A stretch of 64,000 bases of DNA from Tritonibacter litoralis (lineage in GTDB: Bacteria; Pseudomonadota; Alphaproteobacteria; Rhodobacterales; Rhodobacteraceae). Below are positions 49,382-64,000 of this stretch, in pieces. Position 1 is the stretch's first letter, and each line of letters begins with the position of its first letter. Where the stretch lies: contig NZ_WIBF01000007.1 in assembly GCF_009496005.1 (NCBI RefSeq), forward strand, positions 62,001-126,000, written 5' to 3'. The position numbers and the translations under genes were made by a program. The notes beneath the pieces are model-generated. The model did not search any database. It saw nothing but the letters and a program-made list of their open reading frames with translations, and was not told the DNA's origin.

Positions 49382-49753
49382 GGTTTGTTTGTACAAATGC
49401 ATTAGATTCTTAAAACTTGTGACTTAATCCCATGATCTATTTAGCGTTTCTCGAAACAGTTTTGTGAAAAAAGATAGACTGTTTACTCCGAAAGGGGTGA
49501 TCTTAACCATATTTTATCCTATCTTAACCTAAATGCAAATTTTGAAAAAACTGCCTCAAATTTAAGGTAAAAGAAAGGCGAGAATTTCGCTGCTCTTCCG
49601 GCCGGTGGGTCAAGGGGCATTCGGGTGTCCGCTGGCGGAAAATTACAGACAGATCTGCACGTTGGGGAATGTGCACAGGACCTGATTGGGCGCCTGTATG
49701 GTTCTGTTTGGCGCGGCGGAATGTGTAGTACGTGGGATCAGTGGGGGTTTTAC
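49382..49753. other. AT-rich upstream region of the exopolysaccharide locus with paired TTAACC sites
   Basis: This 372-base region contains TTAACC at 49503-49508 (as TTAACCAT, a CtrA-like half-site) and again at 49524-49529, spaced 21 bases (two helix turns). The sequence around 49440-49560 is strongly AT-rich, as for a promoter. A GTG at 49625 in frame with the next gene could extend it by 43 residues, but I favour the ATG at 49754. The regulator is not known. Confidence 0.45.
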
Positions 49754-50506
49754 ATGGATGAGTTGCTTGTGCGCGACAAAGGGTCAATCTTTGTCGGACG
49801 GAAGACGGCTGTGACTGGCGGTCATGCAGGAGAAGAGGCCGCTGTTCTGCCAGAGCCTGAAACATTTGCTGTTTGGGGGAGCGGTGATTCAGGGTTCGAT
49901 GGGTATGGGCGTTTTGGAAAACGAGTCATTGATCTGATTTTGATCTTGGGCAGCGCGCCCATTGTGCTGCCGATTATTGCACTTTGTGCCTTGGCCTTGT
50001 GGATCGAAAGCGGACTGCCTTTTTATCGCCAAATCCGTTTAGGTCGAGATGGGCGCGAGTTCTCTATTTTGAAGCTACGAACCATGGTTCGGGATGCAGA
50101 AACATTGCTGGCTTATCATTTGGACGCTGACCCGCAGCTTAGGGCTGAATGGGACAGCACTCAAAAGCTCAAAAATGATCCACGGATCACGCCGGTTGGC
50201 CGGTTTTTGCGTGTCACATCTTTGGATGAGTTGCCGCAAATCTGGAATGTTTTGAAAGGTGAGATGAGCCTGGTTGGTCCACGGCCGATGATGCCGGACC
50301 AACTGCATATGTACGGCGCTCCGGATGCCTATTTCGCGCTGCGTCCTGGAATAACAGGAAAATGGCAAGTGTCTGCGCGAAATGAGAGTGGCTTTGGTGC
50401 ACGTCAAATCTTGGATCGTGACTATTTGGCTCAACTGAGTTTTTTCGAAGATGCCAAAATTCTTCGTCGTACCTTCGGCGTGGTTTGGCGCGGCACCGGA
50501 TATTGA
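49754..50506 (+). CDS. Priming sugar transferase, ExoY/WcaJ-like (polyprenyl-phosphate hexose-1-phosphate transferase)
   Basis: This 250-residue membrane enzyme starts the repeat unit by placing a sugar phosphate on undecaprenyl phosphate. A membrane helix (VIDLILILGSAPIVLPIIAL, about residues 59-78) precedes the catalytic domain with FSILKLRTMVRDAE, GRFLRVTSLDELPQIWNVL and MSLVGPRPMMPDQ, the conserved active-site stretches. The C-terminus ARQILDRDYL...FFEDAKIL is usual. The first of three co-oriented polysaccharide genes (with 50580 and 51658). Confidence 0.9.
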   Translation: MDELLVRDKGSIFVGRKTAVTGGHAGEEAAVLPEPETFAVWGSGDSGFDGYGRFGKRVIDLILILGSAPIVLPIIALCALALWIESGLPFYRQIRLGRDGREFSILKLRTMVRDAETLLAYHLDADPQLRAEWDSTQKLKNDPRITPVGRFLRVTSLDELPQIWNVLKGEMSLVGPRPMMPDQLHMYGAPDAYFALRPGITGKWQVSARNESGFGARQILDRDYLAQLSFFEDAKILRRTFGVVWRGTGY

Positions 50507-51657: not shown

Positions 51658-52929
51658 ATGGGGCCTATCTATTCGCTGCGGGACTTCTTGGACATGCTGC
51701 GGCGTCGCGCGCGTGTCATCTTGGTCTTGACCTTGTTGGGCTGTATGGGTTCGGTTTGGTTTGCCCTCCAGCAAGAGCATTCCTACCAATCAGCCGTTGT
51801 TATTCAGGTCGCGCAGCCCACCATTGCGGACGACCTTGCAAAATCGACGGTGGATGGCTCTTCGGCCCGACGCATTCAATTGATTGAACAGCGGTTGATG
51901 TCGCGCAATCAATTGCTTGAGATTGTTGATAAGTTTGGAATTTACGATGATCTGCCACAGCTGCGCCCTTCCGAGATTGTCGACCTTATGCGACAGTCGA
52001 TTGGGATCACCGGTGTTGCTGCGGCGCGCGAAGGATTTGCGGATGACGGGACGATTTCGGTCCTGACCATCACGGCCACCATGTCCACACCGGAAATGGC
52101 GCAACAGGTCGCGGATGAGTTTGCATCGCGCATCATTGATCTCAGCATTCAATCTCGGATTTCGCAGGCGCGGGAAACCCTGCAATTCTTTGTTGAAAAA
52201 GAAAACGCGCTCAAGGAAGAGCTGGTGCGCCTCGAAGATGAGGTGGCGACCTATCGTTTTGAACATGATGTGTCTTTGCCGGGCGTGGTTGAACTGCGGC
52301 GCGGTGAAGTTGCGCAGATCAATCAAAGCCTCTTGGAAATTGCCCAGGACAAGATCGCTTTGCGTCGTGAAGCGGATCAAGTGCAGGAAAATGAGCGCCC
52401 CGCGACGGCCCGGCGTAAGTTGGCCGAGCTGCAGGAACAGATGGCAACGCTGGATGAGCAAAACGATTTGCTGAACACGCGCAAAGAAGAGTTGGAAGCA
52501 GGATTGCAGACAACACCGCAGGTGGAGCGACAATTGGGGGCCTTTGAGCGCCAGATCGAACAGCTGCAAAGCCAGCTTGGTACGATCATCGAGCGTCGCA
52601 GCGAAGCCGAAGTTGGCTTTCGCCTGGAACAATCCAGCCAATCGGAACGGTTGACGGTGATCGAGGCAGCGTCCTACCCGGACTATCCAGTTGATGGCGG
52701 TCGCAAAAAGCTTGCGATTATGGGTGCGATGGGCAGCATCGTCATGGGGATCTGCGCGGCCTTTGGGCTGGAGCTGTTGCGCCCTGTGATGCGTACCGCA
52801 GCGCAGATGGAGCGGGAAACGGGACTGATGCCCGTTGTGTCGATACCAGAGCTCAAAACTGACGCGAGATCGATAAAGCGGCGTCAGAAACAAAAGGCAA
52901 AACAGCGCGGCGTTCGGCGCACGGTTTGA
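51658..52929 (+). CDS. Polysaccharide co-polymerase, Wzz/GNVR type
   Basis: This 423-residue inner-membrane protein has a first helix (ARVILVLTLLGCMGSVWFAL, residues 18-37) and a second near residues 360-378. A long periplasmic coiled coil between them (about 165-325) is rich in Glu and Gln. Residues 325-355 hold the GNVR-like region just before the last helix (LTVIEAASYPDYPVDG). It sets polysaccharide chain length with the BY-kinase-like protein just upstream. A basic tail KRRQKQKAKQRGVRR follows the last helix. Confidence 0.88.
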   Translation: MGPIYSLRDFLDMLRRRARVILVLTLLGCMGSVWFALQQEHSYQSAVVIQVAQPTIADDLAKSTVDGSSARRIQLIEQRLMSRNQLLEIVDKFGIYDDLPQLRPSEIVDLMRQSIGITGVAAAREGFADDGTISVLTITATMSTPEMAQQVADEFASRIIDLSIQSRISQARETLQFFVEKENALKEELVRLEDEVATYRFEHDVSLPGVVELRRGEVAQINQSLLEIAQDKIALRREADQVQENERPATARRKLAELQEQMATLDEQNDLLNTRKEELEAGLQTTPQVERQLGAFERQIEQLQSQLGTIIERRSEAEVGFRLEQSSQSERLTVIEAASYPDYPVDGGRKKLAIMGAMGSIVMGICAAFGLELLRPVMRTAAQMERETGLMPVVSIPELKTDARSIKRRQKQKAKQRGVRRTV

Positions 52930-52936
52930 GACTTTC

Positions 52937-54301
52937 TCAGGGTTGAAAAGTCAACAGCATGTGCCAAACCCTGTCCCAATGGATCCACACGGCGTAACTC
53001 GCAACCAGCAAGGTGAGACCCGTTGCCACGACATCATGTAGCGGGTCCCAAACCTTGTGTGCGCGCGCGATTGCCACAATCGCAGGATATGTTACCAAAA
53101 GGGCGATGCCCATGGCTGCGATGCCACCTGGCAGGCCGAACCAAACAACGCCGCACAGAAACAGAAGGGTTTGCGAAACGGCCCGGATGGCGCTGACCCA
53201 GAAGAAAGATTTACTGTCTCCTGCGGCCAGTGCGGCTTGGTCATAGGTCATGACAATGACAGCTGGGGCTAGAACCAAGGACAAGGGAACCATAATGGCA
53301 CCTGCAATTTGGTAGCGATCATCATACAGCAGATCGACCAGCCAGGGTCCGGCCAGAGCCATGGTCCACAAGAGGGCAAGAATACCACCAGACAATCCGG
53401 CGCGCAGCATGCGTTGTTTGCGCAAACTTTGCGCATCTGCGGCCGATGAATCGCGATAAATTGGGATCATCAGCCGTTGATTAACCGCATAGCCCAGGGA
53501 CATCGGAAAACTCGCCAGGAAAAAGGCGATATTATAAACGCCCAGCATCTCTAAGGAGATGAACTTTCCCAAAATCGCCCGGTCGCCTTGTGATGTGATG
53601 AACCAAAATGCGGTCGACAAAAAGATCCATTTGCCGAACTTTATCAAGTCCTGCGCGCAGCTCTTGTCCCAATGAAACCTGTTCCGATGACCCGGCAGAT
53701 TGATGTGTGTGGACAAGACATAAAACAAAGACTGTATGACAGTGCCAAGCGCCAGCGCGACAACAGATTGGGTCGCCAGCGCAAGAAGGACGATAACAAT
53801 CAGGCTTACCGCTTGGCTTGCCAATTCCAATTGGGTCACGCGACCAACCAAAAGATGACGGTGCGCTGTCTCGATCCGGGTGGGTTTAAACCCTTCAACT
53901 GCCAGCATGGTGCCCGCAATTGGCAAAAGGTAAATGAGTTCCGGTGCATCGTAAAAACGGGCAACGGGCCAGGCCAGCAGAAAAGTAATCCCCCACAAGC
54001 CCAATCCGCGCACCACTTGGATCGTCCAAGCCGTGTCCAAGAAATCAGGATCATCCCCTCGTTTGCTTTGCAAGATCGCGGGGCCGATCCCCACATCGGA
54101 AAATAGGACCAATCCGGTGGTGATCACAGTGATCAGGGCCATCACGCCAAAGGCTTCGGGAAACAGGATCCGGGTCAGGATTAGGTTGGACGCCAGCCGC
54201 ATCGCTTGGCTGCCGCCAAAGCCCAAAATCATCCAAGAGGCAGAGCGCACCGCACGCGCCATCAATCCAGACCCTTGAATTCGCGCGATGACCCCAACCA
54301 T
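52937..54301 (-). CDS. Lipopolysaccharide/exopolysaccharide flippase (Wzx/ExoT-like, MOP superfamily)
   Basis: This 454-residue polytopic protein has about 12 to 14 hydrophobic segments. The N-terminus WMILGFGGSQAMRLASNLIL and LFPEAFGVMALITVITTGLVL typify the polysaccharide-biosynthesis branch of the MOP flippases. It would move undecaprenyl-linked repeat units across the inner membrane. The start is the ATG at 54301, with AAGGA 9 bases upstream. The gene converges with the Wzz-like gene (7-base gap). Confidence 0.88.
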   Translation of the reverse strand: MVGVIARIQGSGLMARAVRSASWMILGFGGSQAMRLASNLILTRILFPEAFGVMALITVITTGLVLFSDVGIGPAILQSKRGDDPDFLDTAWTIQVVRGLGLWGITFLLAWPVARFYDAPELIYLLPIAGTMLAVEGFKPTRIETAHRHLLVGRVTQLELASQAVSLIVIVLLALATQSVVALALGTVIQSLFYVLSTHINLPGHRNRFHWDKSCAQDLIKFGKWIFLSTAFWFITSQGDRAILGKFISLEMLGVYNIAFFLASFPMSLGYAVNQRLMIPIYRDSSAADAQSLRKQRMLRAGLSGGILALLWTMALAGPWLVDLLYDDRYQIAGAIMVPLSLVLAPAVIVMTYDQAALAAGDSKSFFWVSAIRAVSQTLLFLCGVVWFGLPGGIAAMGIALLVTYPAIVAIARAHKVWDPLHDVVATGLTLLVASYAVWIHWDRVWHMLLTFQP

Positions 54302-54532
54302 TCAAATTATCCTTTTACATCTGTGGGCAAGCTAGGGGCCGCCAGAACTGCGGTCAATTCCCGTCGAATGCTGATCGAGATTAGTCTTGTTGGTGCTTTG
54401 GTTTGCGCAACAATTCAATCCTCTCTAAAGGGAAATCATTTATAAATCAGGCTAGGGCGATGCATTGTTTTGCGCCTTTGTGTTTCGCGGGGTAGCCTGC
54501 GGTCAAACCCATTTCGACCAAGGGCGTTTATT

Positions 54533-55735
54533 GTGAAAATTGCGTATGTTTTGAACACTTATCCGCAACCGTCGCATTCATTTATCCGGCGTGAACTGCG
54601 GGCTTTGGAACGCCAGGGGTTTGACGTCCTTCGGTTGGCCATGCGTGCCAGTGATGCGGAATTGGTGGACGCGGGTGATCAGGACGAAGCGACCAAGACC
54701 GAATATGTTCTGGCCGCAGGAGGCTTGTCCCTGTTGACGGCTTTATTGCTGGAAATCCGGAACCCGGCGCGGTTTTGGTCTGCTTGGACCACTGCGGTTG
54801 CCTTGGGGCGTCGGTCTTCGGTCGGGATCCTCCGGCATCTGATTTATCTGGCTGAGGCCGCCTGGGTGAAACGTCGCTGTGCGCAGACCGGGACCCGCCA
54901 TATGCATGCACATTTTGGGACAAACTCTACCGCCGTTGCTCTGTTGGCTCAGGCACTTGGTGGGCCAAGCTACAGTTTCACCGCGCATGGCCCCGAAGAA
55001 TTTGACGCCCCAGACGCGCTGTCATTGGGAGAGAAGGTGAACGCCTCTGGCTTTGCTGTTGCCATCAGCAGTTTTGGCCGCAGTCAGCTGAGCCGATGGG
55101 CGGCGTTTGAGGCCTGGGAAAAGATCAAAGTGGTCCATTGCGGGATCGAGGTGGAGAAATTCGCAGATCCCGCGCCAATGCCCGGTGGTGACCTGCGATT
55201 GGTGGCAATTGGTCGCTTTGTCGAGCAGAAGGGACAAATGATCTTGCTGCATGCGATGGCTGAGGTGGTGAAGACCCAACCCAAGACACAGCTGTTTCTG
55301 GTAGGCGATGGGGCAATGCGCGAAGATCTGGAGGCGGCGATTGCGGCCCTGGAACTGCAGAACAACGTTACTTTGACTGGATGGCTGGATGAGGCGGGCG
55401 TGCGGGCACAACTGGCCCAGGCCCATGCGCTGGTGATGCCGTCCTTTGCCGAAGGTCTGCCAATGGTGGTGATGGAAGCAATGGCAGCGATGCGTCCGGT
55501 GATTGCCACCTATATTGCTGGAACCCCTGAACTGGTCTTGGAAGGGGAGACCGGCTGGTTGGTGCCTGCCGGGGACGCGGGGCGCTTGGCGGATGCTATT
55601 TGCAAACTGGACCAGTCTCCTATGTCCAAGCGCGTGGAAATGGGGCAGGCGGCGCGCGACCGTGTACTCGCGCGCCACAACAGCGACACAGAAGCTGCGA
55701 AACTTGCTGGATACATCCGCGACGTTGCGGGTTAA
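54533..55735 (+). CDS. Glycosyltransferase family 4 protein
   Basis: This 400-residue GT-B enzyme starts at the GTG at 54533 (VKIAYVLNTYPQPSHSFI); an upstream in-frame ATG adds a non-conserved leader. The P-x-x-S-x-x-F-I-R-R-E pattern at the N-terminus groups it with exopolysaccharide GT4 enzymes such as the one at 2448-3686. The C-terminal domain starts near AIGRFVEQKGQMILLHAM (about 223), and the donor site is FAEGLPMVVMEAMAAMRPVI (about 302-321). It overlaps the convergent GT2 gene by 4 bases. Confidence 0.88.
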   Translation: MKIAYVLNTYPQPSHSFIRRELRALERQGFDVLRLAMRASDAELVDAGDQDEATKTEYVLAAGGLSLLTALLLEIRNPARFWSAWTTAVALGRRSSVGILRHLIYLAEAAWVKRRCAQTGTRHMHAHFGTNSTAVALLAQALGGPSYSFTAHGPEEFDAPDALSLGEKVNASGFAVAISSFGRSQLSRWAAFEAWEKIKVVHCGIEVEKFADPAPMPGGDLRLVAIGRFVEQKGQMILLHAMAEVVKTQPKTQLFLVGDGAMREDLEAAIAALELQNNVTLTGWLDEAGVRAQLAQAHALVMPSFAEGLPMVVMEAMAAMRPVIATYIAGTPELVLEGETGWLVPAGDAGRLADAICKLDQSPMSKRVEMGQAARDRVLARHNSDTEAAKLAGYIRDVAG

Positions 55736-56577
55736 CGGCCGCGGGTCCAACGGTTTTGGCTGCGAAACAAGGGAGTTTTCACCGCCACACTCACCGCAGC
55801 ATAGGCAAGAAACCCCACAGGGTCGCCGAGGAACAGCCGGATCACGTCGGATGGGCTGGGGGACAGCTTGTCATCATTGTCCAAAAGCGCCGGGTAAAGG
55901 CGTTCGATCTCTTCCACGCCTTGGTTTTGCCGACGTCGAACCCGGACCAGATTGCGAAACCCCTGAACCAGCGGCCAACGGTATCCTGCCGCGGCGATGT
56001 GGCGTTCATTGGGGGCAAACATCAACCGCGCATAAGTGTCATCCGCGATGATTTGAGGCCAGCTCTGCCATCGGTTCCGGCCTGCACTGTTCATCGCAAA
56101 CAGCCCAAAACCCGGTACGCCTTGGGTCACAAAAGGCAAACGCTCCCAAAGGCGACCATAGGCCCGGCTAAATGCAGACTGCCCGCCCAAGACACTGGGC
56201 CGACCAGAGGCATAGCCCGGCGCATCGCCGTTCAAAAGCGCGTAAAGCTCTGACAACAAAGATGTCTCGATGCGCACATCCGCATCGAGGTAGACCAGAA
56301 CACCGCCCTGTGCTGCGGCATCGCCCTGGTTCAAGGCGTTCAGCTTTCCCCCTTGTGCAATGTCAATCACGCGCAGTTGCCAGGGGGCAGGCACCGGGTG
56401 GTCGCGCGCGATGGCCGCGGTGTCGTCCTTGCAGCCATTCGCCAGAACAAGCACTTCTGCTGTAACAGGCTCTGGCAAGGGGTCAGATGCAAACACCGCA
56501 GCAAGGCATTCCGCGATCTCATCCGCTTCGTTGTGGGCGGGGATCAAAACGCTAAGGCCGATTTTGGGCGTTGTCAC
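55732..56577 (-). CDS. Glycosyltransferase family 2 protein
   Basis: This 281-residue GT-A enzyme starts at the GTG at 56577, which overlaps the upstream gene's stop as GTGA; a longer frame is not conserved. The Rossmann start SVLIPAHNEADEIAECLAAV and the metal-binding DXD variant VYLDADVRIE (about residues 87-96) are intact. A hydrophobic patch near the C-terminus (DVIRLFLGDPVGFLAYAAVS) suggests membrane contact. It is the last gene of the NRPS operon and links that operon to glycan synthesis. Confidence 0.88.
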   Translation of the reverse strand: MTTPKIGLSVLIPAHNEADEIAECLAAVFASDPLPEPVTAEVLVLANGCKDDTAAIARDHPVPAPWQLRVIDIAQGGKLNALNQGDAAAQGGVLVYLDADVRIETSLLSELYALLNGDAPGYASGRPSVLGGQSAFSRAYGRLWERLPFVTQGVPGFGLFAMNSAGRNRWQSWPQIIADDTYARLMFAPNERHIAAAGYRWPLVQGFRNLVRVRRRQNQGVEEIERLYPALLDNDDKLSPSPSDVIRLFLGDPVGFLAYAAVSVAVKTPLFRSQNRWTRGR

Positions 56578-59078
56578 TTTGCCCCCTCCAGAACGGCCCA
56601 ACGGGGGTTTTCGTCGCTCAACGTCCTGAGCGCGCCCCAGCTGCCCCAGGGGCCTGGCGCATAGACGTCGGCATAGGCATTGAACAAAGTTCCCCCAAGC
56701 GCGGCCCATCCGTCCAACAATTCTTGATACAAATGCCCCATATCGTCTGAGTAATTGTAATGCGTGAAGAACGCCGTCAAAGTGTCGTCTTCGACATGGG
56801 GGCCGACCCCAACCACATGGCTGCCGCCTTCATACATGATCAAGTCCATGCCATAGCTTTTGGCGACCTTGGCGTGATAGGGCAGGATGCGCGTCAACAG
56901 ATCCGCCAAAGTGTCGGCTTCCTGACCGGAGATCAGACCGTCACGCAATTCGGCAGTGGCCTGGGCTGTGGCAATGTCGAATTGATGCGCCCGAACAAAT
57001 GCTCGCAGATCTGCGCCGATCAGACCTTTTTGGCGACCGGCTTCATGGGCACGGGCGCGGCTGTCGGCGATCCACGCGCGCACCACATCCACATAGTCAT
57101 CCCGGCCTAAAACCCCGCCAAAATAGCCGGTGACTGCATAGGCATCAAAGTAATCCGCAGGCCGTCCGTTTTGCGGCGCTTCGCTGCGCCACAAGGGGGC
57201 CTCTAACATCTGTTCTTCAAGCCCCAGCCAGCCAGTATGCGCCGCGATGACCCGGACCAGCCGGTCCGGGGCGTCCGCAAAAACCCGGCTCCAGATCTGG
57301 GACATCTCAGCGGACCGCACACCGTAATACTGCATCCACAAGTTTTCACCGCCCCAACGACGGCGGGCCTGTGTTTCGGCCCATTGGGCCTGTTCAAATT
57401 GCCAGTTCCAAACCTCGTTCGAATACTCGACATAAAGCTTCAGATCCTCGTCCAACATCTGATGCGACAGGCGGGCAAAGTTACGCATGTAGCTGTCGTC
57501 GCTTTGATGCGGCATGGAGAACCAGGGCGATGCCCCCAGTTCATTCACAAGGCTCAGCATCACCTCGGCTGGTACACCCTTGAGCGCCCAGGAATAATCC
57601 GTTGGAAGCGGGCGATCTTCCCAGCCGATTTGGGTCGATCCGTTGGTCTCCATCCAGTCCATGAACCGCAGCACTTCAAACCCGTCCAGCACATCCAGCC
57701 AACGTGGGTTGAACAGACGCCCGGCGGCAAAGGCGTCCAGATGTTCTTGTTTCACAACCGAAATGTTGCGCACATAGTCCCCGGTTTTCTTGCGGTCACT
57801 GCGTTGAATACGGACCTCGACAATGCCGTCGCCGGGGGTGAAATCGAACCAGATCTCATTGTCTCCATATCGGACGTTGCTGGCACGTCCCGCGACCTCG
57901 ACAATGCCATCCCCTTCAAAGCGGAGACGATAGCGCCCCGCGAGGGATCGGGCCTCTTCTGGTAGATCGGCAAAGAGCACTGTCCCGATTGAGCCAAGCT
58001 GCGCTGGCACCGCTTTTGGCCAGCCGTTGTCATCCAGATATCCTGCCTCTTCCAGCTCTTGGGCCGTTGTGCCACCCCAACGTCCGGGCTGGTGGCCAAT
58101 CCAGGCACGGGCGGTTTTGAAATGGTCCAAAAACGGTGCCTGTGGCGACCAATCCGCAATGCCTGCAAGGTTGATTGCAATCGGGCGTTGAATTTCTTTT
58201 GCGGTACGGGGGGCTGCGGTTCTGGGGGATTGGTTCAAACGTACCACATCTGGGTCCTGCGGCAACGCGCTGGGCGCCGGTGGCAGGGCAGTCCGCTGCG
58301 CATCCTTGCGTGCGGCGCGATCCGCGATTTCCTGAAGCCGCTGCGCTTGGGCGGCAGTGGCCGCTTGATAAGGGGTGCCCCATTCATCGGTCAGTTTGCG
58401 CGGGAGACCTTGCGCGGATTGGCCGGTCAGCACCGCGTATTGAAACAGGCTGATGTAATAAAACCCGATGTCATTGGGATGGATATCATCCTCGAACACG
58501 TCGCGCAGGCTGGTCAGCCCGGGCACCGTACCGGCCAAGATCGCATCCTCCAGCCGGGCCAGTGCCTGGCCCGCTTCGAGCAGTTCAATATCCCCTCCGG
58601 TGGTCGCGTTCACGTCATCAACCACAGCTTGCCAGGCCGACAGATCCTGTTCCAGACGCTCGCGCCAAGGAACGCTCATCCCATCATCAAAAGGCACGGC
58701 AACACCCGTTCCGCTGTCGAGACTGTGCCATGTTTCTTGCAAAAAGAACCGCACGTCCGGATTTTGGCTGCGCGCCAGTTCGTAAAACTGGGTCACGGAT
58801 TCGCGGGTGTTGCTCCATTTCAGGTGGTTGGCCAGCGGGATTGCTTCGGTCACAATGACCGCATCAACGCCTTCGGCCAAACGCGTGCGGGCGTTGATAC
58901 CCTCCGCCTCGGCCGCGTGTTGCCAATTATAGCTCAACGGTGCGCCGTTGATGATCTGTGCTTCGACCGCTGTGGGCTGTGTTGCATCAAACAGCTGGTC
59001 CAACATCCGCGGGTTGTCATGGCTGAACAGCGAATGCCCCACAAACACGAGCGAAGTTATAAGTTCAGAAGGAGTCAT
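56574..59078 (-). CDS. SGNH-hydrolase-like domain fused to a clan GH-A-like glycoside hydrolase domain
   Basis: This 834-residue protein has two parts. Residues 1-240 resemble an SGNH hydrolase: block I is VGHSLF (S16, GHSL instead of GDSL), an ETWHSL stretch is at 115-120 and the catalytic DxxHP is D197-x-x-H200-P. After a proline-rich linker (about 262-295), residues 300-830 begin AINLAGIADWSPQAPFLDHF and have EYSNEVWNW with N554-E555, then MYEGGSH with E750, the pattern of a clan GH-A acid/base and nucleophile pair. No signal peptide is visible, although the paralogue next door has one. It could trim or deacylate the polysaccharide. It is coupled to the GT2 gene and lies 5 bases after the smaller SGNH gene. 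Confidence 0.7.
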   Translation of the reverse strand: MTPSELITSLVFVGHSLFSHDNPRMLDQLFDATQPTAVEAQIINGAPLSYNWQHAAEAEGINARTRLAEGVDAVIVTEAIPLANHLKWSNTRESVTQFYELARSQNPDVRFFLQETWHSLDSGTGVAVPFDDGMSVPWRERLEQDLSAWQAVVDDVNATTGGDIELLEAGQALARLEDAILAGTVPGLTSLRDVFEDDIHPNDIGFYYISLFQYAVLTGQSAQGLPRKLTDEWGTPYQAATAAQAQRLQEIADRAARKDAQRTALPPAPSALPQDPDVVRLNQSPRTAAPRTAKEIQRPIAINLAGIADWSPQAPFLDHFKTARAWIGHQPGRWGGTTAQELEEAGYLDDNGWPKAVPAQLGSIGTVLFADLPEEARSLAGRYRLRFEGDGIVEVAGRASNVRYGDNEIWFDFTPGDGIVEVRIQRSDRKKTGDYVRNISVVKQEHLDAFAAGRLFNPRWLDVLDGFEVLRFMDWMETNGSTQIGWEDRPLPTDYSWALKGVPAEVMLSLVNELGASPWFSMPHQSDDSYMRNFARLSHQMLDEDLKLYVEYSNEVWNWQFEQAQWAETQARRRWGGENLWMQYYGVRSAEMSQIWSRVFADAPDRLVRVIAAHTGWLGLEEQMLEAPLWRSEAPQNGRPADYFDAYAVTGYFGGVLGRDDYVDVVRAWIADSRARAHEAGRQKGLIGADLRAFVRAHQFDIATAQATAELRDGLISGQEADTLADLLTRILPYHAKVAKSYGMDLIMYEGGSHVVGVGPHVEDDTLTAFFTHYNYSDDMGHLYQELLDGWAALGGTLFNAYADVYAPGPWGSWGALRTLSDENPRWAVLEGAK

Positions 59079-59083
59079 GGGAG

Positions 59084-59986
59084 TTATTCGGCCTGTGTAA
59101 GTCCGGTTCGATCAAAGGTGGTGACCGTGGCCCAGACGATTTTCTGCACGGCTTCGGCGGTTGCTTGGTCAAAGGCTTGCGCAGCCGTGCCGTCAGGCAG
59201 GGTCAGCTGGTGCGCCAGACCTTCTGGGCTTTTATGATAAAGCACCGCGTAATGGGTCAAAGCCACCACATAAGCGCCCAGGTCGTTCAAATGGATGGTA
59301 TCCGTGAACAGTTCGCTGCGTGCTGTAAGACCAGGAATGCCACCGGTTTCGGCCGCGCGTACCACGGCTGCCATGACCTGGCCAGCGGGGATCAGATACA
59401 CCGGATGGTCTGCATTTCGGCGACTGTCCGGGCCCAGCAGTTTTTTGAGCCACAAGGGGTCAAGATCGCCATCAATCCGTTCCAACCACCCGTCGGCGTC
59501 GTCCAGATTGTGCCAGGTCTCATATAGGTAGATCCGAGGTGGCTTTGGCGCGTTTCGGGCCAGATCTGCCCAGCGGCGCATGTATTTGGCCGAGCCAAAA
59601 TATTTGATCGCATCCCGCAGCTCGACCATCTCGGTCAGGACCACCGCGTCATAATCACCTGATCCCACCGCCTCGCGCGCTTCGCGATAGGCAGGCGGGT
59701 TGTTTGAAATCTCGAAATCGCGGATTGGCTGGTCCGGCTCCCAATGTTCCTTGAGCGAGGTGCCAGAGCCCAACTGGCTGTTCCACTGATGACCTTCGGG
59801 TGCCAGCTGCGCCAACATATGGGGCATGACCGGCCCAACCAAGGAATGCCCCAGGTGATAGACCTGCAGTGCCTGAGCAGGTGGGGCAAGCGGCGGAACA
59901 GGTGTCGCGCGACTTTGGGTGCTGACAAGAAAGGCGCCGATCGGCACCAGGGTTAACAGTCCCAACAAAGCACGTCGCTTGGTCAT
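59084..59986 (-). CDS. Exported SGNH-hydrolase-like protein
   Basis: This 300-residue protein has a signal peptide (MTKRRALLGLLTLVPIGAFL, cleavage near SRA, with twin arginines at residues 4-5 that could mean Tat export). The SGNH pattern is LGHSLV (S48), a YETWHN stretch (E156-H159) and D229-x-x-H232. These three motifs match the N-terminal part of the 834-residue protein at 56574, so the pair arose from a common ancestor. It may be a periplasmic carbohydrate esterase or acyltransferase-like protein. Its start overlaps the PPTase stop as ATGA. Confidence 0.75.
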   Translation of the reverse strand: MTKRRALLGLLTLVPIGAFLVSTQSRATPVPPLAPPAQALQVYHLGHSLVGPVMPHMLAQLAPEGHQWNSQLGSGTSLKEHWEPDQPIRDFEISNNPPAYREAREAVGSGDYDAVVLTEMVELRDAIKYFGSAKYMRRWADLARNAPKPPRIYLYETWHNLDDADGWLERIDGDLDPLWLKKLLGPDSRRNADHPVYLIPAGQVMAAVVRAAETGGIPGLTARSELFTDTIHLNDLGAYVVALTHYAVLYHKSPEGLAHQLTLPDGTAAQAFDQATAEAVQKIVWATVTTFDRTGLTQAE

Positions 59987-60705
59987 CGTCCCCTCATCGT
60001 GATCTGATCCGCCACCATACGTGGCAGGGTTGCGGCTGTAACAATAACACCTGCGCCAATTGCAAACCGCCCAGCGATCTCATCACCGGATTGGAACGGC
60101 AACTGGTCGCCGGTAAACCGGGCCAGAAACCGCGCAGACGGCATGTCAATCTCCAACTCCATACCGTCGAATCCATAATACCGTTGGCTGATGGAATACT
60201 GACATTTGTAAGCGGCTTCTTTGGCTGAGAAAATGAGTTTTCCCATTTGGCCTGGATCAGCTTGCGCGCGCATCCAGGACTGTTCATCTGCCGAGCAGAT
60301 CGCATCCCACAGTTCGGGTTTCAGCGGCGTGTCCTCTTCGACGTCCAGTCCGATGCCGCCAAATTCACTGGCGCGTGCTACGCCTGCCATGGCGCAGCTT
60401 TGGGTATGGGTGATCGAGCCCGTTAACCCATCGGGCCAGACCGGCGCACGTTTTTCACCGATGAATACTGGCTGGGCGGGAAACCCCAAATCGATCATGG
60501 CTTGCCGCGCCATGGCACGACCGGCGGCAAATTCACGACGACGTTTGTCCACACAACGTTCGGACAGCCCCGCGGCCTCGGCAGGCAAGGGGGCGGGTTG
60601 CGGTATCAGCGGGTCGCAGGCCGCAACACAGATACCAGACCCCACACAAGACCGAAGCATCCCCAGCCGGATCTGGGTGCGATCGGACACATCCGTCACC
60701 ATCAC
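59983..60705 (-). CDS. 4'-phosphopantetheinyl transferase, Sfp/EntD type
   Basis: This 240-residue enzyme attaches the phosphopantetheine arm to carrier domains. The magnesium- and CoA-binding motifs are GIGLDVE at residues 117-123 and FSAKEAAYK at 159-167. GSITHT at 96-101 is the usual upstream strand. The EntD-like length and the gene's 4-base overlap with the upstream NRPS gene leave little doubt that it activates that NRPS. Confidence 0.93.
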   Translation of the reverse strand: MMVTDVSDRTQIRLGMLRSCVGSGICVAACDPLIPQPAPLPAEAAGLSERCVDKRRREFAAGRAMARQAMIDLGFPAQPVFIGEKRAPVWPDGLTGSITHTQSCAMAGVARASEFGGIGLDVEEDTPLKPELWDAICSADEQSWMRAQADPGQMGKLIFSAKEAAYKCQYSISQRYYGFDGMELEIDMPSARFLARFTGDQLPFQSGDEIAGRFAIGAGVIVTAATLPRMVADQITMRGR

Positions 60706-63700
60706 GCACGCGCTTTGCGGTTGGCCCGCATCGCCCGACGTTTGGACATACGGTCCGCGCGATCCGCTTCGACTGCGGCGGTGTCTTCTGCGGCGGGCTC
60801 AGCTGGTTTCCCGCCCGAAAGCCCTTCAATATGATCCGCAAGCCCCGAAAGCGTTGGGAAGCGGAAGATATCGGTGATCGACAGCTTGGCCGCATCCAAC
60901 CCCTGACGAATTTCGCGATGGGCCTGCACCGCCAGCAAAGAATGCCCGCCAAGCGCAAAGAAATTGTCCTGAGCCCCAACCGCGCTTACACCCAAAATCC
61001 GTGACCAGATGGCCGCGATCTGAGACTGTGCCCCATCGCTTGGGGTCTCGGGCGCGCTGGTTTCCATCCGCTGTGGCTTTGGATCCGGCAACGCTTTGCG
61101 GTCAATCTTCTTGTTTGGCGTCAACGGGAAGGCATCCAGCGTTACGATATGGGCTGGTATCATGACTTCCGCCAGAGTTTGGGCCAGGGCCTGTTTGGCT
61201 GCCGCTTCATCCACCGGGGCAGAGGTTGTGACATAGCCAACCAGCCGTTCCCCTTCACCCATTTTGCGGGGCATCACAACGGCTGCTGTCACACCCGGGA
61301 ATGCTGCAAGCGCCGCCTCGATCTCACCCAGTTCGATGCGCTGCCCTCGAATTTTGACCTGATGATCCGTCCGTCCCAGGAAATCAAGCCGCCCATCCGC
61401 GCGCCACCGCACCAGATCGCCCGTGCGATAGAATGTTCCGGGCCTCAGCGGCAGTTCGACAAACCGTTCTGCGGTCATCGCCTCGCGCTGCCAGTATCCT
61501 GCGGTGACGCCAGCACCGCCGATCAAAAGCTCCCCAGGAGCGCCAATGGGTTGCGGTGCATTGGCGTCATCCACCACCAGAATTTCCGTATTGGCAATCG
61601 GCGTGCCCACATCGACCACACCTGCGGGCACCGCGTCAAGGGTTTGGACGGTGGACCAGATCGTTGTCTCGGTCGGGCCATACATATTGTGGATCTCGGC
61701 CCGGGTGCCGGTGCGCAAGGCGGCCACCAGATCACCGGGCAGCGCTTCCCCGCCAACCAAGAGATGCCGCAGACGGCCGGTGGCCATGCGCGCCTCTTCG
61801 TTCATTGCAATCATCCGTGCCATGGATGGGGTGCACTGCATATGTGTGACGTTGTGACGGATGATCTGAGCGGCCAGAGAGAAGTCATCTGCTGCCAGCT
61901 CTTGCGGCGCGTTTGAGAGGCGCAGCACCTCAGCCAAGGGTTTCAACCCGTCCAAAACCACATCCGGTGCAATGCCGTAATCGATCAGGCAAGCGACCTC
62001 ATCCACGCCGATCCGTTTCAATTCTTCGACCCGCTGGCACGCGTCAGAAACGGTGCCAAACAGACCGGAATCCTCAAAATAACGCTCGAAGGCAAAGTCG
62101 AGGATGGCTTCCAATTCATCCTCAGACAGGCTGCCCAGATCCATCTCAAACGGGTTTTTGACGCCTTCGGGGCGTTTGAACGCCGGGAAAGCCCAAGCGT
62201 ATTGTTTGATCAGCCCGGCGGCAGAGCGCAGATAGTCTTTCATCGGTTCCCGTGCGATCTGGCGGGCCTCGTCGCGGCTGTCCGCCAGATAGGTGTGCAG
62301 CATCAAGGTGACGGTGTAGTCTGCGGGATCATGCCCGGCGGCGCGTAGGGCAGTGTGATAGATCTCGATCTTGCCAGCAACTTCGTCGATGCTTTGCCCC
62401 AGAAGATGGGTCAGAACATTGGCCCCGATCGCGCCCGCCTCACGCCATGTCTCGGGATTGCCGGCGGTGGTGACCCACACTGGCAACTCCTTGGACACGG
62501 GGCGTGGCTGGGACAAAACGCTGTGTTCGCCGCCGTCTTTGCGAGGGAAGGAAACCTCTTCACCGCGCCACAGTTTGCGAACGGTCTCGATACTGTCAAA
62601 CAATGCTGGTTTGTTTGCGGGTGGCGTGTTTTCGGGGCGAAGGATAAAATCATCCGGTTGCCAGCCCGAGGCAAAGCCAATGCCTGCCCGGCCGTTGGTC
62701 AGATTGTCGATCACCGCCCATTCCTCGGCGATGCGCGCCGGGTGGTGCAGGGGGGCCACGCAAGAGCCCGCGCGCACGCCCAGGTTCTGGGTCACAGCAG
62801 CCACAGCCGCGCCGGTAACCGACGGGTTGGGGTAGGGGCCGCCAAAGGCATGGAAATGGCGTTCCGGCGTCCAGACCGCGTTGAACCCGTGTTGATCGGC
62901 GAATTTCGCGCCTTCCAGCAGCAATTCATATTTCTTCGGACCCGCACCATCGTCGTTGCCCCAGTAAAACAAGTTGAACGCCATCTTCCGGTCGCTCATG
63001 GCGATGGGGCCATTTGACAGTTCCAGGCGACTTTCATCACTGGACAGCACCAGTTTGAACCCGCGCGACAGGGTCCAGAACAGCTCAAGAACCGAAATGT
63101 CGAAGGAGAGTGACGTGACCGCCAACCAGCTGTCGCCAGGCTTATGGGGAATGCGTTGATCCATGCCGGTGAAGAAATTGGACACGTTGGCGTGTTTAAC
63201 CATCACGCCTTTGGGCAAACCTGTCGAGCCGGAGGTATAGATCAGATAGGCCAGATCGTCGCCGGTGGCGCCTCCATTAACTGGGGCGGTCTGGCTCTGG
63301 TCAGCCGTCGCGTCGATGTCCAAAACCGCCGCATCCGAGGCCGGAAGACCAGCTGCCAAAGCTGTTTGTGTCACGATCACAGCGGCTTGGCTGTCTTTGA
63401 CGTAATGCGCAATCCGATCCGCGGGATAGGCCGGATCCAGCGGCACATAAGCGCCCCCGGCTTTCAGAACCGCAAAGGCGGCAACAACCAGATCCATGGA
63501 CCTGCGAATGTAAATCCCGACATGCGCACCGGGTTTGACGCCCATATCCTGCAGACGCGCGGCGACGGCATTGGCGCGCGCATCTAATTGGGCATAGGTC
63601 AGCGTTGCGTCTTCAACAACCAGTGCCGTTGCATCTGGGGTTTTGGCCACCTGCGCTTCCAAAGCGGCATGAATGGTCAGGTCTGACGGGAAGTCACAGG

Positions 63701-64000
63701 TCGTGTTGTTCCACGTTTCCAACAGCGTTTTACGCTCGGCATCCGGCAGGATTGGCAGCGATTTTACAGGGTCCAGACCAGCGGTGCCCATAGCCTCCAG
63801 CACAAGCTGCAACCGGGCCGCCAGCAATTCCACCCCGTCGTCTGGCAGCAGCGTCTTGTCCGCATAAAGGGTGGCGGTTTCGTTGACCACGGCTAGGGTC
63901 AACACACTGCCCTCCGCTGCGCCGTCGCGGCCCAGAGACAGGGTTACGGCTGGTCGCCCCTGATCTGCAAGCTCTGGCGCACGGGCGATGAGGTCACAGG
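60702..64000 (-). CDS. NRPS module with a luciferase-like monooxygenase inserted in the adenylation domain, 5' end outside window
   Basis: The reading frame is open to the window edge, so the N-terminus is missing; the visible part is about 1098 residues. It begins in what looks like the end of a condensation domain (LTLAVVNETATLY, near 63905-63867). The adenylation domain starts near 63700: A3 is YTSGSTGLPKGV and A4 FDISVLELFW. After A4 it is interrupted at about 63010 by a luciferase-like monooxygenase (MAFNLFYWGND, GFNAVWTPERHFHAFGGPYPNP, GIGFASGWQPDDF), ending near 61950. A5 NMYGPTETTIW, A7 YRTGDLVRW and A10 LTPNKKIDRKAL follow. A carrier domain has the serine in GGHSLLA (codon 60941-60939). 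It ends with a basic tail and no thioesterase. Confidence 0.92.
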   Translation of the reverse strand, partial: CDLIARAPELADQGRPAVTLSLGRDGAAEGSVLTLAVVNETATLYADKTLLPDDGVELLAARLQLVLEAMGTAGLDPVKSLPILPDAERKTLLETWNNTTCDFPSDLTIHAALEAQVAKTPDATALVVEDATLTYAQLDARANAVAARLQDMGVKPGAHVGIYIRRSMDLVVAAFAVLKAGGAYVPLDPAYPADRIAHYVKDSQAAVIVTQTALAAGLPASDAAVLDIDATADQSQTAPVNGGATGDDLAYLIYTSGSTGLPKGVMVKHANVSNFFTGMDQRIPHKPGDSWLAVTSLSFDISVLELFWTLSRGFKLVLSSDESRLELSNGPIAMSDRKMAFNLFYWGNDDGAGPKKYELLLEGAKFADQHGFNAVWTPERHFHAFGGPYPNPSVTGAAVAAVTQNLGVRAGSCVAPLHHPARIAEEWAVIDNLTNGRAGIGFASGWQPDDFILRPENTPPANKPALFDSIETVRKLWRGEEVSFPRKDGGEHSVLSQPRPVSKELPVWVTTAGNPETWREAGAIGANVLTHLLGQSIDEVAGKIEIYHTALRAAGHDPADYTVTLMLHTYLADSRDEARQIAREPMKDYLRSAAGLIKQYAWAFPAFKRPEGVKNPFEMDLGSLSEDELEAILDFAFERYFEDSGLFGTVSDACQRVEELKRIGVDEVACLIDYGIAPDVVLDGLKPLAEVLRLSNAPQELAADDFSLAAQIIRHNVTHMQCTPSMARMIAMNEEARMATGRLRHLLVGGEALPGDLVAALRTGTRAEIHNMYGPTETTIWSTVQTLDAVPAGVVDVGTPIANTEILVVDDANAPQPIGAPGELLIGGAGVTAGYWQREAMTAERFVELPLRPGTFYRTGDLVRWRADGRLDFLGRTDHQVKIRGQRIELGEIEAALAAFPGVTAAVVMPRKMGEGERLVGYVTTSAPVDEAAAKQALAQTLAEVMIPAHIVTLDAFPLTPNKKIDRKALPDPKPQRMETSAPETPSDGAQSQIAAIWSRILGVSAVGAQDNFFALGGHSLLAVQAHREIRQGLDAAKLSITDIFRFPTLSGLADHIEGLSGGKPAEPAAEDTAAVEADRADRMSKRRAMRANRKARA

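Follow-up and report, generated by a model that had tools for sequence, protein, structure and literature searches.

At one end of a 64,000-nucleotide stretch of Tritonibacter litoralis DNA (contig NZ_WIBF01000007.1, positions 62,001 to 126,000; hereafter the window), a nonribosomal peptide synthetase (NRPS) gene (60702..64000, minus strand) encodes an adenylation (A) domain interrupted by a luciferase-like flavin mononucleotide (FMN) monooxygenase (LLM). We propose, with about even confidence, that this NRPS is the starter module of a two-protein line in which an N-formyl-alpha-hydroxyglycyl starter is extended by a type I polyketide synthase (PKS) and released by a thioesterase (TE), the product serving a polysaccharide. 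On the minus strand, an open frame covers 60702-63998 and continues past the window end; the remainder of the region was taken from the same 225-kb contig (stretch L003). The complete NRPS has 1520 amino acids (L003:5203-9765, minus strand); its gene starts 1264 bp past the window end and its C-terminal 1098 of 1520 codons lie inside the window. It is composed of a formyltransferase (F) domain, a linker, the N-terminal part of the A domain, the LLM, the C-terminal part of the A domain, a peptidyl carrier protein (PCP) domain, and a basic tail. The Pfam matches of the complete protein were the formyltransferase N and C domains, a two-piece AMP-binding domain, Bac_luciferase, AMP-binding_C, and PP-binding, and no thioesterase was among its Pfam and NCBIfam matches. 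Because the F domain and the neighbouring PKS lie outside the window, they were absent from a preliminary description of this DNA made from its letters.

That description had reported a complete set of adenylation motifs with a MupA/Atu3671-type LLM between A4 and A5, followed by a carrier domain, and the profile searches bear this out. The N-terminal part of the A domain (63015..63707, minus strand, residues 520–750) extends through motif A4 and beyond, the LLM insert occupies 61926..62990 (minus strand, residues about 759–1113), and the C-terminal part with A5 to A10 is found at 61071..61907 (minus strand, residues 1120–1398), motifs A3, A4, A5, A7, and A10 being located at residues 674, 721, 1193, 1279, and 1384, respectively. 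The insert matched TIGR04020 of NCBIfam (1.9e-142, 474.4 bits; curated cut-off 244.45) and Bac_luciferase of Pfam (2.5e-47). An AlphaFold2 model of the A-LLM-A region (window 61065-63707, residues 520–1400, built from 56 sequences; pLDDT 84.8, pTM 0.68) aligned with the A domain of gramicidin synthetase 1 (1amu) over 884 columns with a template modelling (TM) score of 0.88 by target, and the insert of the model aligned with the flavin monooxygenase domain 6ket with a TM score of 0.89 by target and 45% identity. The predicted adenylation fold is single and continuous on both sides of the LLM, and on this model an A domain made of two broken halves was ruled out. The carrier domain (PP-binding; 60810..61037, minus strand) contains Ser1442 within GGHSL, and this serine is kept in 88 of the 89 related loci aligned. 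The LLM is the most conserved domain of the NRPS (mean pairwise identity 0.78 versus 0.51–0.64 for the other catalytic parts). The linker of approximately 200 residues between F and A is the least conserved part (0.32); by eye it looks like the end of a condensation (C) domain, and the Condensation family of Pfam was not matched in it. A tail of the KRRAMRANRKAR type recurs C-terminal of the NRPS carrier (L003:5203-9765).

The specificity code of the A domain, put together from its N- and C-terminal parts with code positions by the GrsA numbering, reads DILQLGMIWK. Exactly this code is given for all four glycine-activating A domains with a monooxygenase (MOX) in the accessible part of a published comparison (PMC12283262). 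Because the code is identical to that of these known modules, the amino acid used by the NRPS is predicted to be glycine, a more precise statement than that of the preliminary description. In a survey of 143 rows (142 LLM hits plus the query, with near-duplicates included; 132 hits reduce to 116 at 93% identity), an A domain with the matching Asp, Gln, Gly, and Met surrounds the LLM in 133 rows, and 124 rows read DILQxGMIWK with position 299 alone variable; the 10 remaining rows are either fragments or LLMs that lack such an A domain. The rows also include LLM-interrupted A domains preceded by a full condensation domain, from Streptomyces (C-A[LLM]-PCP-TE), Nostoc, and Burkholderia. The Nostoc protein (L152:4642-10092) carries a glycine-type A domain with LLM together with an FkbM methyltransferase between its condensation and carrier domains. 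Two alphaproteobacteria with genomes of 1.5 Mb (G222 and G298, loci L129 and L130) encode LLMs over the TIGR04020 cut-off in frames of 1252–1258 amino acids without the surrounding A-domain code. The T. litoralis genome itself (G000) has a second NRPS neighbourhood on contig C1 (64.2–77.5 kb; L002, L179), with a stand-alone LLM-like protein below the TIGR04020 cut-off and a flavin reductase nearby.

Since the F domain lies outside the window, it was modelled from the Tritonibacter aquimaris copy (pLDDT 95.5, pTM 0.90). The model matches ArnA and methionyl-tRNA formyltransferase (Fmt) across about 300 residues, and profile comparison likewise places F nearer to ArnA and Fmt (about 100 bits) than to LgrA (44 bits). 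The triad N86/H88/D124 is well represented in related loci (Asn in 87/89, His in 88/89, and Asp in 87/89, the others being gaps). In Deinococcus, F is encoded by a separate gene. In the alphaproteobacterium G583, the place of F is taken by a full condensation domain (1.4e-68); the A domain that follows is likewise LLM-interrupted and has a code of the same type, and the neighbouring PKS is of the same kind. It looks as if either F or a condensation domain might supply an N-acyl group. A first LLM tree contained one spurious 66-residue row and F labels that were unreliable because of short flanks at many loci. In the rebuilt tree of 35 rows, the 23 F-module rows require 2 changes, and a single clade is neither rejected (p-AU 0.40) nor shown. 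The SGGKDS cyclodehydratase motif was not found in the window, L003, L004, or 89 related loci, and oxazole formation as for conglobatin was rejected on this ground.

Upstream of the NRPS gene lies a glycosyltransferase family 2 (GT2) gene, and before it the gene for a 2145-amino-acid type I PKS (L003:10790-17227) with ketosynthase (KS), acyltransferase (AT), ketoreductase (KR), dehydratase (DH), acyl carrier protein (ACP), and TE domains, in this order. The preliminary description had remarked on the lack of a thioesterase and argued from it that the product is transferred to another acceptor. The remark is true of the NRPS protein and not of the line, and the argument fails because the neighbouring PKS, which probably takes over from the NRPS, has a TE at its end; an assembly line without release was rejected for the same reason. 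The 80 related loci counted for neighbouring genes are the best of 527 confirmed relatives, and their counts are not independent because the loci are close kin. The GT2 gene is present in all 80, and the PKS scored over threshold in 78, the two misses being at contig ends (1.4 and 1.2 kb upstream) and one of them, L041, still showing a 138-bit PKS end. All 82 PKS rows of at least 85% length have the catalytic residues of KS, AT, KR, DH, and ACP; the other 7 of the 89 loci, where the PKS was short or missing, were dropped. The TE column is Ser in all 82 rows as well, with the Deinococcus cell meaningless because that PKS ends in a C domain. KR precedes DH in this PKS and in the three distant relatives scanned, the usual PKS order being DH-KR.

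Since the NRPS begins with F and the PKS ends in TE, we take the flow to be from NRPS to PKS and the substrate of the LLM to be an N-acylated glycine, formyl or other. The basic C-terminal tail of the NRPS may serve for docking to the PKS. In Methylobacterium, Aliiroseovarius, Deinococcus, G671, G557, and G280, the NRPS gene stands immediately before the PKS gene on the same strand, and the three NRPS-first PKSs scanned end in TE, C-A-PCP-TE, and C. In Aliiroseovarius (L120:19492-28740) and G557 (L186:9559-18795), the PKS is fused to an extra NRPS unit, which is C-A-PCP-TE by Pfam in L120 and has the codes DTIWIGGVTK and DTIWVGGVTK (L120 and G557, respectively), as if this branch made a different product. 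At a further locus, G545, neither F nor PKS was found nearby.

We propose that the A domain would activate glycine and load it onto the carrier, that the N-terminal F domain would formylate the glycyl amine, and that the LLM, with reduced FMN and O2, would hydroxylate the N-formyl-glycyl thioester at its alpha carbon. The N-formyl-alpha-hydroxyglycyl group would then pass to the PKS ketosynthase, and at least one malonyl-type unit would be added, reduced, and dehydrated. Release by the PKS thioesterase would give, after one extension, something like a 4-formamido-4-hydroxy-crotonyl unit, and the product would serve the surface polysaccharide of the surrounding genes, perhaps as a substituent. 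Of this picture, the domain architecture, the conservation of catalytic residues, the glycine code, the regular association with the PKS, and the surrounding polysaccharide genes are observed. We infer formylation, alpha-hydroxylation, order of transfer, and extender unit from homology; retention of the carbinolamide is a guess, and so is attachment to the polymer, which is suggested by the gene neighbourhood. The earlier proposal that the carrier-bound amino acid is oxidized, for example by N- or C-hydroxylation, is still probable and can be narrowed to glycine, for which the precedent is hydroxylation of the alpha carbon in myxothiazol and melithiazol. As set out in the accessible parts of the reports on these synthetases, a flavin monooxygenase located between a4 and a5 hydroxylates the glycyl alpha carbon, after which cleavage of the carbinolamide leaves the carrier with a glyoxylyl thioester; solanimycin, with a flavin monooxygenase between a8 and a9, is described there as retaining alpha-hydroxyglycine (PMC10204066, PMC11342130).

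N-hydroxylation would place formyl and hydroxyl on one nitrogen, that is, a hydroxamate made within one module. The LLM would in this case produce an N-formyl-N-hydroxyglycyl starter, for which hadacidin is a parallel, and the product would be metal-binding or an antimetabolite, with the polysaccharide genes mere neighbours. This fits the subclade of L120 and G557, which has the extra NRPS module and no polysaccharide-gene hits nearby, and the ornithine MOX of the NRPS subunit MbaC is linked with N-modification in the part of its description available to us. The other LLMs and flavin monooxygenases described in such sources act, however, on carbon, as proposed or shown, and the annotations of genes neighbouring the relatives name no TonB-type receptor and no other gene for siderophore uptake, so that we regard N-hydroxylation as quite improbable. 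A fabrubactin-like siderophore was considered and rejected.

The NRPS gene overlaps by 4 bases the gene of a 4'-phosphopantetheinyl transferase (59983..60705, minus strand; 4PPT_N 6.9e-23, ACPS 6.3e-11), which scored over threshold in 77 of the 80 related loci, one miss being a contig end. Overlapping this gene in turn, an SGNH-like protein is encoded at 59084..59986 (minus strand), with an apparent N-terminal signal sequence and GHSL by eye. A large protein at 56574..59078 (minus strand) shows, also by eye, GHSL at its N-terminus and EYSNEVWN and YEGG in its second half, the latter two reminiscent of clan-A glycoside hydrolases. Neither SGNH-like protein matched a Pfam or NCBIfam family, and in the PDB the larger one gave a best E value of 0.2 as a single sequence, while profiles of both gave none and one at 0.43. 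The smaller is over threshold in 48 and the larger in 58 of the 80 related loci, and the two could be the periplasmic part of attaching the product to the polymer. Beyond them lie genes for a GT2 (55732..56709, minus strand; Pfam), a glycosyltransferase family 4 (GT4; 54470..55735, plus strand), which adds to the polysaccharide context, a polysaccharide flippase (52937..54301, minus strand; Polysacc_synt_3 2.7e-46), a Wzz-like chain-length protein (51658..52929, plus strand; 4.6e-05, just below the Pfam cut-off), and a bacterial sugar transferase (49625..50506, plus strand; Bac_transf 1.1e-54). On the upstream side, a WecG/TagA glycosyltransferase and a Wzy-like protein, below the Pfam cut-off, are encoded.

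To what extent such genes accompany the pair elsewhere was seen in a neighbour set from 29 related loci, in which a longest-open-reading-frame (ORF) rule gave 143 ORFs besides the NRPS, PKS, GT2, and phosphopantetheinyl transferase genes; eight longer ones were omitted and 135 were scanned. These matched GT2 (26), WecG (10), GT4 (10), Polysacc_synt_3 (7), Wzz (7), and sugar transferase (3), a single ORF being able to match several families. In a control of 136 ORFs from 20 arbitrarily placed stretches, all from genomes of the own family, sugar-polymer families were not among the 25 families listed, so each had at most one match, and single matches may be unlisted. By the ORF rule, some ORFs on the wrong strand were chosen as well, both in the test set and in the control. 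In single-sequence searches, at least one polysaccharide gene was found at 10 of 14 further loci (seven genomes, five plasmid records, and two Hydrogenophaga, whose hits include the core GT2 gene) and at 0 of 10 control pairs of 40 kb. In this further set, 88 neighbour ORFs were listed, the 15 of G583 and G545 were omitted, and the 73 from five of its genomes were scanned; sugar-polymer families again head the list, with small counts (GT2 3, GT4 3, sugar transferase 2, flippase 2, export 2). UDP-glucose dehydrogenase, glycosyltransferase, and sugar transferase genes are neighbours of the pair in Deinococcus, and UDP-glucose dehydrogenase, GT4, and a marginal Wzz match in Methylobacterium; export genes near it belong to the TolC family in Aminobacter and to type I secretion in Shinella.

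Altogether, apart from some exceptions, polysaccharide clusters are the setting of the NRPS-PKS pair in Rhodobacterales, Hyphomicrobiales, Hydrogenophaga, and Deinococcus. The suggestion of the preliminary description that the product goes to the polysaccharide made next door therefore holds as far as the neighbourhood is concerned, which recurs in several orders and in Deinococcus. An ordinary diffusible secondary metabolite, with a location among polysaccharide genes that is historical only, would agree with the release of the chain by the TE, with the many lines of this type that make secreted products, and with the loci that have no polysaccharide context. We nevertheless consider it rather unlikely, because polysaccharide genes recur, differently arranged, in Rhodobacterales, Rhizobiaceae, Phyllobacteriaceae, Methylobacterium, Hydrogenophaga, and Deinococcus, and the control stretches, all from the own family, showed none.

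Several observations weigh against the starter-module proposal. The link with polysaccharides is not universal, since single-sequence searches gave no polysaccharide-gene hits near Aliiroseovarius L120, G557, G583, and G545. The order is PKS-GT2-NRPS in the genome of the window and its kin (78/78), and the PKS and NRPS genes are divergent in Shinella and Aminobacter; because of these arrangements, gene order alone is no proof of flow from NRPS to PKS, nor does it exclude it. A flavin reductase was not seen in the operon, the four found being all on other contigs. The AT signature is IAAHS in 78 of 82 PKS rows, unlike the HAFH motif of malonyl-type AT domains, which makes the extender unit uncertain. 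Moreover, F could act on something other than glycyl, as its nearest solved relatives are ArnA and Fmt and not the F domain of LgrA. Were F to formylate an amino sugar of the polysaccharide, as an ArnA-like enzyme fused for co-regulation only, the A-LLM-PCP part would use unprotected glycine. Sugar N-formyltransferases are, like ArnA, among its best structural and profile matches, and the separate gene in Deinococcus is compatible with such a role. An N-terminal F fused to A-PCP is, on the other hand, the layout of known starter modules, and the condensation domain in its place in G583 fits N-acylation of a carrier-bound amino acid, for which reasons amino-sugar formylation seems to us very improbable.

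The chemical precedents also count against retention of the carbinolamide. Because both known a4-a5 modules, those of myxothiazol and melithiazol, end in cleavage in the available accounts, the first chemical rival is that the carbinolamide cleaves after alpha-hydroxylation and formamide leaves, glyoxylyl-S-PCP being the true starter for the PKS. The shared code DILQLGMIWK of MOX-bearing glycine A domains (PMC12283262) is in line with this, and the retention of alpha-hydroxyglycine reported for solanimycin (PMC10204066) is not. The conserved formylation also speaks against cleavage. An unprotected alpha-hydroxyglycyl group is expected to lose ammonia spontaneously, and formylation would therefore be pointless if the nitrogen were discarded. 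We judge a glyoxylyl starter unlikely and prefer the N-formyl-alpha-hydroxyglycyl starter.

Full-length copies were found, among 61 genomes, in the T. litoralis genome itself, in 14 of the 17 other genomes of the genus, in 4 of 19 further members of the family (the copy in G026 being split across two frames), and in 0 of 24 from other families of the class. In a wider sampling (TIGR04020 at 1e-60, with or without A domain, own genome counted), matches were obtained in 10 of 289 genomes of the class and 24 of 397 of the phylum, and further occurrences come from plasmid records of Shinella, Aminobacter, Paracoccus, Rhizobium, Methylobacterium, and Deinococcus. The copies of the betaproteobacterium Hydrogenophaga (L075, L086) cluster with Defluviimonas and Cypionkella in the LLM trees (support 100/99 in the first and 92/89 in the rebuilt tree), and this grouping with Rhodobacterales suggests horizontal transfer. 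The Phaeobacter inhibens genome paper lists, in its accessible part, the PKS Inhi_1972 and the NRPS Inhi_1974 without a product (PMC4062626), and from their one-gene spacing we infer that they correspond to the NRPS-PKS pair. For Tritonibacter mobilis AK171, a type I PKS cluster and an NRPS-like cluster unlike known clusters are mentioned in the available text (PMC11225332); the part of PMC4359443 available to us holds nothing on the locus. The present line may account for such product-less PKS and NRPS genes in Phaeobacter and Tritonibacter genome papers.

Considered as a whole, the locus may, on a tentative view that has more chance of being wrong than right, represent a widespread mini line, with formyl-glycine, alpha-oxidation, and extension by a one-protein PKS, that is dedicated to an exopolysaccharide substituent or precursor. 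The range of such lines would extend from marine Rhodobacterales as far as Deinococcus and include a subclade with an additional NRPS module and without polysaccharide genes around it. Usually, NRPS and PKS lines are regarded as sources of diffusible small molecules. If the view is true, assembly-line chemistry would decorate a surface polymer, which would be a new kind of polysaccharide chemistry. Judging from its domains, the protein would in addition be a natural module that unites formylation and oxidation of glycine.

Insertion of an LLM into an A domain is already known, since the myxothiazol and melithiazol synthetases carry an a4-a5 flavin monooxygenase that hydroxylates glycine, and the two halves of the F-A(Gly)[LLM]-PCP module are both known. 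The present NRPS shares with these synthetases the position of the LLM between a4 and a5 of a glycine A domain and the code DILQLGMIWK. Their glycine-MOX modules, named MtaG and MelG, come last, receive a peptide, and release an amide, whereas the present module comes first and is paired with a PKS; F replaces the full C domain, and the TE is in the PKS instead of the same module. The C-A[LLM]-PCP-TE protein of Streptomyces L151 is closer to the myxothiazol/melithiazol layout. Loading modules of the F-A(Gly)-PCP type, which supply a PKS, have been described, in the accessible parts of the reports, for phthoxazolin, conglobatin, and oxazolomycin (PMC5764310, PMC4504003). The present NRPS resembles these modules (PtxE, CongA, and OzmO, respectively) in having F with an N-H-D triad, a glycine A domain, a carrier, and a PKS partner. 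No LLM is described for them in those parts, and they differ from the present line in having an SGGKDS-type cyclodehydratase and long PKS lines, where T. litoralis has a single PKS protein, a polysaccharide cluster, and no SGGKDS motif. The insert itself is like the MupA/Atu3671 LLMs of TIGR04020, including the OX domain 6ket of PuwE (474 bits to the family, 45% identity to 6ket), but the named examples of this family are in PKS lines or stand alone in the descriptions available, whereas the present LLM interrupts an A domain. The initiation module of LgrA (linear gramicidin) likewise opens its line with an F domain joined to A and PCP; it differs in having no LLM and in the remoteness of its F domain (44 bits by profile). 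We found no description of F together with an LLM-interrupted A(Gly) in the parts of the open-licence literature that were accessible, which is weak evidence of absence. What is new to us is the combination of an F-A(Gly)[LLM]-PCP starter with a KS-AT-KR-DH-ACP-TE PKS beside it, recurring in polysaccharide clusters.

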